Positions 6,751-8,345 of a stretch of 64,000 bases of DNA are shown here, in pieces. The stretch comes from an uncultured Gemmatimonadota bacterium. GTDB taxonomy: Bacteria; Gemmatimonadota; Gemmatimonadetes; Gemmatimonadales; Gemmatimonadaceae. Below the pieces are notes generated by a model. The model was given only the letters and a program-made list of their open reading frames with translations, made no database searches and was not told the DNA's origin. The stretch lies in the NCBI GenBank assembly GCA_903910555.1, contig CAIVZZ010000003.1, forward strand, positions 62,001 to 126,000. The letters run 5' to 3'. The position numbers and the translations under genes were made by a program. Positions within the stretch are counted from its first letter, which is position 1. Each line of letters opens with the position of its first letter.

Positions 6751-6907
6751 GAACGAACTCGGTGTTTGGTTGAAAATTGCTTCGAGCCATCACGATCCAC
6801 GCGTCGCAACACAATGATTCGGACCGCGGCACCGCGATGATGCTTTGCGCGGCAATCGATGTCAACTTCAGGTCGACTCGTCGTGCGCGCATCGCAGTGC
6901 GTGTATG

Positions 6908-6927
6908 GCAGCACGTTCGCGTGCTGC
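6908..6927 (+). other. UUCG hairpin abutting the tRNA 5' end
   Basis: gcagcacg and cgtgctgc form a perfect 8-bp stem closed by a TTCG tetraloop, ending three bases before the first tRNA base at 6931. Bacterial tRNA leaders are usually short and unstructured near the RNase P site, so a stable hairpin here is unusual. It probably belongs to the same transcript as the tRNA. Confidence 0.55.
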
Positions 6928-6930
6928 CCG

Positions 6931-7014
6931 GCCCGGTTGGCGGAATTGGTAGACGCGGGAGCCTGCGAAGCTCCTGGCCGAGAGGCCGTGCGGGTTCGAG
7001 TCCCGCACCGGGTA
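6931..7014 (+). tRNA. tRNA with leucine-type body and GCG anticodon
   Basis: A complete cloverleaf folds. The acceptor stem is 6931-6937 with 7007-7013 (first pair G-U) and position 73 is A at 7014. The D arm is ggcggaattggtagacgc, as in bacterial tRNA-Leu. The anticodon stem ggagc/gctcc is perfect, and the loop ctgcgaa puts the anticodon at 6965-6967. A long class II variable arm (ggcc/ggcc) and a perfect T arm with ttcgagt follow. Class II structure, D arm and A73 are leucine features, yet GCG would read the arginine codons CGC/CGU, and the loop resembles tRNA-Arg. CCA is not fully encoded (the bases after A73 are ccgg). Automated callers may label it Arg or undetermined. Confidence 0.85.
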
Positions 7015-7053
7015 CCGGACGTGTCATCGAGAGCGTGAACGATTGACCGATCG

Positions 7054-7077
7054 AACAGAAATGGCTATGGTTCTGTT
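7054..7077 (+). other. Hairpin between the tRNA and its antisense segment
   Basis: aacagaa at 7054-7060 pairs perfectly with ttctgtt at 7071-7077, leaving a ten-base loop. It sits directly before the antisense segment at 7078, so the transcript after the tRNA appears to be an ordered series: spacer, hairpin, antisense, terminator. Confidence 0.4.
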
Positions 7078-7095
7078 GCTTCGCAGGCTCCCGCG
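7078..7095 (+). repeat. 18-nt perfect antisense copy of the tRNA anticodon arm
   Basis: gcttcgcaggctcccgcg is the exact reverse complement of 6954-6971, which covers the end of the D stem, the 5' anticodon strand, the whole anticodon loop and two bases of the 3' strand. An 18-base perfect match within 130 bases is far beyond chance. In a joint transcript it could pair with and hide the anticodon; as DNA it could be an inverted recombination site. Confidence 0.7.
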
Positions 7096-7096
7096 A

Positions 7097-7129
7097 CGGA
7101 GGGTTCGGCCATCTTGGGCCGGCCCTCCG
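7097..7129 (+). terminator. Terminator-like hairpin after the tRNA locus
   Basis: cggaggg (7097-7103) pairs with ccctccg (7123-7129), and cggcc (7106-7110) pairs with ggccg (7117-7121), around a six-base loop with a small internal bulge. A weak T-containing tail follows (ttccgcgttt). It separates the tRNA transcript from the topoisomerase gene. Confidence 0.6.
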
Positions 7130-7151
7130 TTCCGCGTTTGTGCGACGAACA

Positions 7152-8345
7152 ATGGATTCCTCTCGGGATGATGCCGAGCGCGTCGACCGTCCAGCGCCGG
7201 CTAGTCCTTACGGGCGAGTGTGGAATCGAAGCGAGTGGGGTACACTCGACCTAGATGAACTACACGCACTGCTCATGAGCGGAGGCGCCTCAAGCCGCCT
7301 CGCGCTCGAACCGGCGAAGGCCGCCAAGGCCGCGTCGCTTCGATACGTCACCGACGCGCAGCCGGGGATCACGCGCTTGGGACCTGCGCGAGGCTTTCGT
7401 TACGCGAATGCGAAGGGCAAGCGCATCGCGGATGCCGCGACGCTGGCGCGGATCAAGGCGCTCGCCATTCCGCCCGCTTGGACACACGTGTGGATCTGCG
7501 CGAACGCACTTGGCCACATCCAGGCCACGGGCCGCGATGCACGCGGGCGCAAGCAATACCGCTATCACGCGAAGTGGCGCAAGACCCGCGATCAAACAAA
7601 GTATGAGTTGCTTCCCGCATTCGGCGCGGCGCTCCCGCGGATTCGCGCGCGCGTCAAGAAAGACATCGGCGCGACTGGACTCCCGCGCGAGAAGGTGCTC
7701 GGCATCATCGTCAGGCTCCTCGAGACGACGCACATCCGGGTCGGCAACGAAGAGTACGCGCGCGACAACAAGTCGTACGGCCTCACGACGCTGCTGACGA
7801 ATCACGTCAATGTGAAGGGGCCCACGATCCACTTTCATTTCCGCGGAAAGAGCGGCAAATCGCACGCGATCGATGTGAATGATCCGCGCGTCGCGCGCAT
7901 CGTGAAGCGATGCCGTGAATTGCCGGGGCACGAGCTGTTTCAATACATCGACGAAACCGGCAAACCGCAGCCGATCGATTCGAGCGATGTGAACGAGTAC
8001 CTGCGCTCGATTTCGAACGAGGATTTTACGGCGAAAGAGTTTCGAACGTGGGCCGGTACGCTGCTGGCCGCGCGCGGACTTACAGCGCTCAAAATTCCCA
8101 AATCACAAGCGAAGGCCCACACGGCTGTGGTCGAGATGGTGAAGGAAGTGGCAGATGAACTTGGCAACACACCTGCGGTCTGCCGGAAATGCTACATCCA
8201 CCCCGCCGTGCTCACGGCGTACATGGACCAGACGCGCTTGGATCGTTGGTCGAAGGTCCGCGCCGCTGCGAAAGCCAAACGTGGGCTCGGAGCGGAGGAG
8301 AGCGCTCTCCTCGGCTTTCTAAAAGGCCAATCCGGAGCCATGTAG
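7152..8345 (+). CDS. DNA topoisomerase IB (bacterial, poxvirus-like)
   Basis: Relaxes supercoils through a 3'-phosphotyrosyl intermediate. Counting from the GTG at 7140, the motifs are the N-terminal wedge (about 65-145) and the catalytic core with Arg200 in IRVGNEEYA, a lysine in FRGKSGK (237 or 240), Arg302 in FRTW and nucleophile Tyr352 in RKCYIHP, all in bacterial TopIB context. Subtract four for the ATG at 7152, which I prefer because it leaves more room after the terminator; neither start has a clear ribosome-binding site. It is a stand-alone gene, convergent with the next one two bases away. Confidence 0.93.
   Translation: MDSSRDDAERVDRPAPASPYGRVWNRSEWGTLDLDELHALLMSGGASSRLALEPAKAAKAASLRYVTDAQPGITRLGPARGFRYANAKGKRIADAATLARIKALAIPPAWTHVWICANALGHIQATGRDARGRKQYRYHAKWRKTRDQTKYELLPAFGAALPRIRARVKKDIGATGLPREKVLGIIVRLLETTHIRVGNEEYARDNKSYGLTTLLTNHVNVKGPTIHFHFRGKSGKSHAIDVNDPRVARIVKRCRELPGHELFQYIDETGKPQPIDSSDVNEYLRSISNEDFTAKEFRTWAGTLLAARGLTALKIPKSQAKAHTAVVEMVKEVADELGNTPAVCRKCYIHPAVLTAYMDQTRLDRWSKVRAAAKAKRGLGAEESALLGFLKGQSGAM

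Follow-up and report, generated by a model that had tools for sequence, protein, structure and literature searches.

In the type I toxin-antitoxin locus hok/sok, the antisense RNA is expressed from its own sigma-70 promoter and the toxin precursor is held inactive by its own folding. Type VIII toxin-antitoxin systems, represented by CreTA and SdsR-RyeA, combine an RNA toxin with an RNA antitoxin; the toxin of CreTA, CreT, acts on translation through tRNA sequestration (PMC10767807, PMC8501985). A natural bacterial tRNA with the body of one amino acid and the anticodons of others is also on record, namely tRNA-ProX of Streptomyces, which has a Pro body, A34 anticodons, and A33, and for which the accessible part of the review describing it mentions no antisense partner (PMC11415595).

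The locus described here, located in a 64,000-nt stretch of DNA from an uncultured member of the Gemmatimonadaceae (hereafter the window), is probably an RNA-RNA toxin-antitoxin pair, judging from sequence comparisons, in which a Leu-charged misreading tRNA would be held in check by an antisense small RNA (sRNA) that masks its anticodon. The nearest described class is type VIII, and the pair would work like a type VIII system if that inference holds: both partners would be RNAs, with toxin and antitoxin genes within 200 bp of each other (PMC10767807, PMC8501985). Consistent with this class, two non-coding RNAs are encoded close together here, each with a separate predicted promoter. However, the proposed toxin is a mis-decoding tRNA, whereas neither CreTA nor SdsR-RyeA has a tRNA as its toxin or an anticodon antisense as its antitoxin; the putative antitoxin is a free antisense sRNA, whereas CreA is a CRISPR guide and SdsR-RyeA relies on an overlapping opposite-strand RNA. 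Unlike CreTA, the pair would need no Cas proteins, and the element contains nothing like a spacer-repeat unit.

The likeness to type I systems is that an antisense RNA, with a sigma-70 promoter of its own, is proposed to neutralize a toxin RNA, the precursor of which may be inactive through its own folding, as in hok. In contrast to type I, no toxin protein is involved, the antisense is encoded downstream on the same strand rather than opposite the toxin gene, and the target is not a small-protein mRNA but a tRNA with a conserved cloverleaf. Compared with tRNA-ProX as characterized in the accessible part of the review, the tRNAs of the family described here have a Leu class II body rather than a Pro body, mostly G34 or C34 rather than A34, a normal U33 rather than A33, and an attached antisense sRNA gene (PMC11415595). 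No description of an antisense-controlled toxic tRNA was found in the searchable literature, in which few subscription journals or preprints were covered.

The tRNA gene and its upstream region

A class II tRNA gene with a tRNA-Leu body, the proposed toxin, is located on the plus strand at 6931-7014 and was identified both by ARAGORN, which placed it at 6931-7016 with anticodon GCG, and by Rfam (RF00005, 54.9 bits). The class II body, the Leu-type D arm (GGCGGAATTGGTAGACGC), the 4-bp variable arm, and the discriminator A73 (7014) are all those of a tRNA-Leu, but the anticodon is not: GCG, at 6965-6967, is a reader of the Arg codon CGC. CCA is absent from the gene. An ordinary tRNA-Arg with anticodon ACG is also encoded in the same genome, and thus the odd GCG tRNA would be dispensable for CGC reading. 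Three low-scoring tRNA-like matches (34-37 bits) were also recorded in this genome (G000:C15:192299-192390, C24:36624-36681, and C6:118512-118600).

The conserved unit begins near 6837, upstream of the start at 6908 assigned in an earlier sequence-only reading of this DNA, with a promoter-like signal for the tRNA on the plus strand (6837-6868) composed of an RTGAYR box (ATGATG, 6837-6842), a gap of 20 nt, and a YANNNT box (CAACTT, 6863-6868). Of 65 related loci, 20 share this signal with an identical gap (one off-register in position), compared with 0-2 at other spacings, and none was found at the 20-nt spacing upstream of ordinary Leu tRNAs; the 20-nt gap differs from normal sigma-70 promoter spacing. 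A minus-strand promoter reading of the upstream motif (TTGACA-17-CATCAT), present in the window alone, was rejected since the relatives conserve the plus-strand YANNNT instead.

From a predicted start at 6875, the tRNA transcript would carry a 5′ leader to 6930 (plus strand; fold of -30.3 kcal/mol, z -2.8) with two hairpins on the same strand, hairpin A (6883-6906), whose TCGCAG loop (6892-6897) is complementary to the anticodon loop, and hairpin B (6907-6928), which has a UUCG loop; in addition, leader positions 6875-6882 are able to pair with the trailer at 7018-7025. A leader hairpin loop that matches the anticodon loop is present in part of the family, for example TCGCAG for GCG and TCACAG for GTG, and a 5-nt complement of the locus's own anticodon loop was found in the leader at 19 of 55 loci versus 4.4 expected from foreign anticodons; because related loci are not independent, this statistic is suggestive of a role for the leader complement in that part of the family. 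The leader/trailer closing stem GACTCG/CGAGTC is clear in the Arg/His subgroup and is not significant family-wide, and pairing of the leader with the D arm is strong in five loci only.

The probable antisense RNA gene

The antisense segment, on the plus strand at 7078-7095 (GCTTCGCAGGCTCCCGCG), is the perfect 18-nt reverse complement of the anticodon arm at 6954-6971 (plus strand), including the whole anticodon loop, a match that had been noticed in the sequence-only reading and was confirmed by a sequence check and a repeat finder. When 86-nt segments were compared with the next 200 nt at 2000 random placements within the window, the longest exact inverted match arising by chance was 14 nt, never 18 nt. 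Immediately upstream is a sigma-70-type promoter on the plus strand (7043-7071), with a -35 box TTGACC (7043-7048), a 17-nt spacer, and a -10 box TATGGT (7066-7071); in a strict promoter scan, TTGACC-N17-TATGGT matched 9/12, with 0.0 such sites expected in shuffles of the stretch. A TTGAC-like box and a TA...T box are separated by exactly 17 nt at 52 of the 65 loci, and where the promoter is present the distance from the -10 box to the antisense start is usually 3-8 nt, as expected for a transcription start. With a promoter directly before the antisense and the predicted start on the antisense itself, a separate sRNA of ~55 nt, the proposed antitoxin, most likely begins with this segment at its 5′ end and would act in trans.

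Inverted repeats in front of the antisense were no longer than chance (4.18 versus 4.11 in shuffles), and the "second hairpin" previously placed there (about 7054-7077) is not conserved, its site being occupied by the promoter; the remainder of the proposed order, UUCG hairpin (6907-6928), tRNA, antisense, and terminal hairpin, was borne out. The terminal hairpin, on the plus strand at 7096-7130, is terminator-like and would end the sRNA, as well as a tRNA transcript that reads through. The hairpin itself is present as had been suggested, the region 7078-7135 having a predicted fold of -32.2 kcal/mol (z -3.3), but a strict terminator scan does not flag it as a terminator because the T-run that follows is weak in the window; among the relatives, 59 of 65 have a run of at least three T within 80 nt past the antisense. 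The antisense itself usually starts 40-70 nt (typically ~50 nt) past the tRNA end in related loci.

The predicted duplex between the window sRNA and its own tRNA has an energy of -43.0 kcal/mol, compared with -28.2 kcal/mol for the best other cellular tRNA examined. In a multi-copy genome, the best predicted partner of each sRNA was likewise its own tRNA (about -29 to -46 kcal/mol), with sibling tRNAs in one genome being weaker partners by roughly 8-27 kcal/mol; mutually specific pairs of this kind, predicted in genomes with several copies, were counted in favor of the toxin-antidote reading. Across the family, the own anticodon arm outscored every foreign arm for the antisense in 50 of 55 loci, and in most of the other five it is the anticodon loop together with the variable arm that pairs. 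For ordinary Leu tRNAs of these genomes, the internal control, the best antisense scores were at background.

Distribution, covariation, and decay in Gemmatimonadota

The same tRNA/antisense pair was recovered from about 65 related loci in several families of Gemmatimonadota, with the named relatives belonging to the Gemmatimonadaceae and other Gemmatimonadetes and represented mostly by metagenome-assembled genomes. In a nucleotide search, close relatives proved to carry copies of full length, and further genera to carry tRNAs that combine the Leu body with different odd anticodons. Altogether, 13 anticodons are present in the 65 members (GCG, CGC, GGC, GCC, GTC, GTG, GAC, CAC, GAT, GGT, TTC, CTC, and CGG), none of them a Leu anticodon, and the discriminator is A73 in all 64 members in which it was determined. 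Most of these anticodons read common codons, with 8 of 13 having cognate codons in the top 12 (1939 codons counted). With the anticodon arm removed, the odd tRNAs are 74-90% identical to the nearest ordinary Leu tRNA, and the nearest neighbor of every odd tRNA is another odd tRNA (65/65); the tRNA bodies are too short for a phylogeny to prove a single origin.

In the first 11 loci compared, 14 of the 18 base pairs of the helix had changed on both sides, a result that none of 500 shuffles equaled. A covariance model built from the first loci was then searched in 179 family genomes and 395 phylum genomes; at E values up to 1e-6, 41 of the 395 phylum genomes had matches, a few of which are ordinary Leu tRNAs. 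In the model-fitted alignment of 63 matches, three rows of which are reverse-strand echoes of the near-palindromic element, all 18 arm/antisense pairs had two-sided changes, and 94.9% of cells were pairing versus 32-46% with the partner slid. The sequence-only reading had proposed that the antisense masks a dangerous anticodon and had named covariation between 6954-6971 and 7078-7095 across Gemmatimonadota as a check; the covariation is strong and supports masking as the probable function.

Since the covariance model itself demands an antisense, an antisense-free search was also run, using the Leu D arm and an anticodon with a middle base other than A, which excludes every Leu anticodon. Of 36 real tRNAs obtained in this way, 33 are accompanied by an antisense and one (L091) by a degraded antisense; the remaining two, with anticodon TGG, have none and belong to something else, unrelated to the family. 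Relatives that keep the tRNA without a co-varying antisense, which had been named beforehand as evidence against the idea, are thus close to absent. A scan of 84,980 genomes for the GCG-type pattern returned Gemmatimonadota plus four isolated matches without antisense. A phage or plasmid origin was considered and rejected, the near matches there being ordinary tRNA-Leu only.

Five loci, including two others in this genome (G000), have a deleted or broken tRNA but retain the sRNA, promoter, and hairpin. The tRNA is gone from between the flanking leader and trailer segments in G010:C118, just its 3′ end is left in G002:C189, and its 5′ half is scrambled in G051:C4. Within this genome, the second copy (L343, G000:C29:81771-81898, minus strand) similarly has just the tRNA 3′ end left and retains an intact TTGACC-17-TATCGT promoter, antisense (TTGCTTCGCAGGCGGTCGC), and hairpin; it is a putative antidote orphaned by the loss of its GCG tRNA. 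In the third copy (L109, G000:C2:15456-15574, minus strand), the anticodon arm is destroyed, and a tRNA with a GGT (Thr) anticodon would be the match for its antisense. The opposite decay, in which the sRNA is lost and the tRNA kept, is nearly absent, and this one-sidedness fits a module that discards its toxin and keeps a presumably harmless antitoxin.

The same cyclase-family gene is located beside the element in this genome and in the congeners G002:C218 and G010:C152. In both congeners, map precedes the element, as in the window, where map is just upstream and a topoisomerase IB gene (7140-8345) is located between the element and the cyclase gene. The topoisomerase IB gene is reduced to a ~65-aa remnant in G002 and was not detected in the examined stretch of G010; in another congener, G012, which also has the cyclase gene, no trace of the element was found next to that gene. 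The shared neighborhood, together with the absence in G012, thus indicates a copy that is inherited within the genus and open to loss or gain.

Proposed toxin-antidote mechanism and alternatives

In the proposed mechanism, a dedicated promoter would give rise to a precursor and then to a mature Leu-type tRNA with a non-Leu anticodon. Charging with Leu would be expected because leucyl-tRNA synthetase largely ignores the anticodon; according to the accessible part of a review, this enzyme recognizes its tRNA chiefly through the acceptor stem, and tRNA-Leu with an altered anticodon can cause misincorporation (PMC11415595). Given this reliance and the retained Leu features, insertion of Leu at foreign codons would be expected, and a Leu-charged GCG tRNA would put Leu at CGC (Arg) codons and poison the proteome. 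From a separate, constitutive-looking promoter, the ~55-nt sRNA would be supplied, its 5′ end pairing over 18 bp with the anticodon arm, which would hide the anticodon and break the anticodon stem-loop; if this supply stopped, the stable tRNA would outlive the sRNA and become active. The 5′ leader, with its second anticodon-loop complement, may hold the precursor inactive until processing. The biological role might be addiction, phage defense, or stress arrest, and we lean toward the view that the loci constitute phylum-wide, retargetable toxins, namely Leu-charged tRNAs able to acquire an anticodon for nearly any common non-Leu codon, each with a co-evolving antisense antitoxin RNA, used for addiction or abortive defense. 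As a counterpoint, arginyl-tRNA synthetase might charge the GCG type with Arg, since C35 and G36 are present, making the tRNA harmless; such dual charging is less likely as a general way out, given the Ala, Val, Asp, Gly, and His types.

If the toxin-antidote reading is true, the tRNA is a poison and the genetic code its target, representing a new kind of toxin-antitoxin system, and a change of three anticodon letters together with the partner sRNA would create a new, non-cross-reacting toxin-antidote pair. Such loci would also show how genomes retain a code-breaking tRNA and would offer a natural, switchable route to mistranslation at chosen codons; furthermore, a class of Gemmatimonadota genes annotated as "tRNA-Arg", "tRNA-Ala", and similar would be mislabeled.

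The alternative that survives best, although we consider it unlikely, is regulated useful mistranslation, in which the odd tRNA is unmasked under stress and diversifies the proteome, with the sRNA as its off-switch. A regulated, beneficial device of this kind would share the same anatomy and the same parts, including promoters of different type for the tRNA and the sRNA, and mistranslation can be adaptive in some conditions, with tRNA-ProX of Streptomyces as a natural misreading tRNA in the accessible part of the review (PMC11415595). However, the tRNA has repeatedly been lost where the sRNA was kept, the element is patchily distributed and occurs more than once in a genome, and its anticodon changes freely, traits that suit a selfish or toxic module better than a conserved helper.

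A switch in cis, in which a single leader-tRNA-antisense-hairpin transcript alternates between cloverleaf and masked-anticodon forms, is improbable. No terminator was seen between the tRNA and the antisense in the window, so transcription may also run through from the tRNA, and a joint tRNA-antisense RNA contains the 18-bp masking helix in its minimum-energy fold; the leader likewise has an anticodon complement. Nevertheless, the correctly spaced promoter that immediately precedes the antisense at 52 of the 65 loci would be needless for a purely cis-acting device, and orphan antisense genes persist without a tRNA in cis. The single joint-transcript switch proposed in the sequence-only reading consequently yields its place as the main mode and stays as a minor rival, although a read-through transcript may also mask itself in cis.

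tRNA-derived spacers serve as sRNA sponges in E. coli, and by this token the antisense could be an ordinary mRNA-regulating sRNA with the tRNA-like gene as its sponge; we give this little credence, since the sRNA seed differs between loci in step with the neighboring tRNA and tracks its own tRNA only, which argues against mRNA targets and makes a conserved one unlikely, and the tRNA retains a full decoding-competent body. Less probable still is that the tRNA acts as a lure or sensor for phage- or toxin-encoded anticodon nucleases, with the sRNA shielding it until needed: anticodon nucleases exist and the anticodons of the family are diverse, but a Leu body would poorly imitate the substrate of a nuclease that recognizes an Arg, Ala, or Asp tRNA as a whole, and the sRNA covers the very site that a nuclease would cut. 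Finally, tRNA genes are common integration sites, but the earlier suggestion that the inverted copy is a recombination scar from an integrase using the anticodon loop can be dismissed, since a single scar would lose complementarity, whereas compensatory re-matching is seen over about 65 loci, with fixed spacing and a promoter that places the start on the antisense.

Leu-body tRNAs with odd anticodons are also borne by phage contigs, where, unlike in the toxin-antidote pairs proposed here, 14 of the 15 examined had no antisense and CCA is often encoded; such tRNAs are thus not always paired with an antidote. Similarly, an alphaproteobacterial metagenome-assembled genome carries a Leu-body GCG tRNA (L133, 5409-5439, minus strand) with CCA encoded and no obvious antisense. 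Leu-body TGG (Pro) tRNAs without antisense at L189 (G356:C102) and L212 (G178:C17) are each followed by a related small protein with the pattern GPxPxxLKxxGxWxxAVxxA, and these are possibly another tRNA-linked element. The viral contigs L221-L300 contain many 5′-half tRNA-Leu fragments (TGGCGGAATAGGTAGACGC...), which are not full tRNAs and are perhaps attachment sites, together with some tRNAs in which a Leu body is combined with an odd anticodon or a stop anticodon. On one viral contig (L260, 2939-3027), a Leu-type tRNA with a GCC (Gly) anticodon is followed shortly downstream by a good antisense that covers the anticodon and variable arm (score 18.6), in a layout unlike that of the Gemmatimonadota element; this viral pair may be an independent case.
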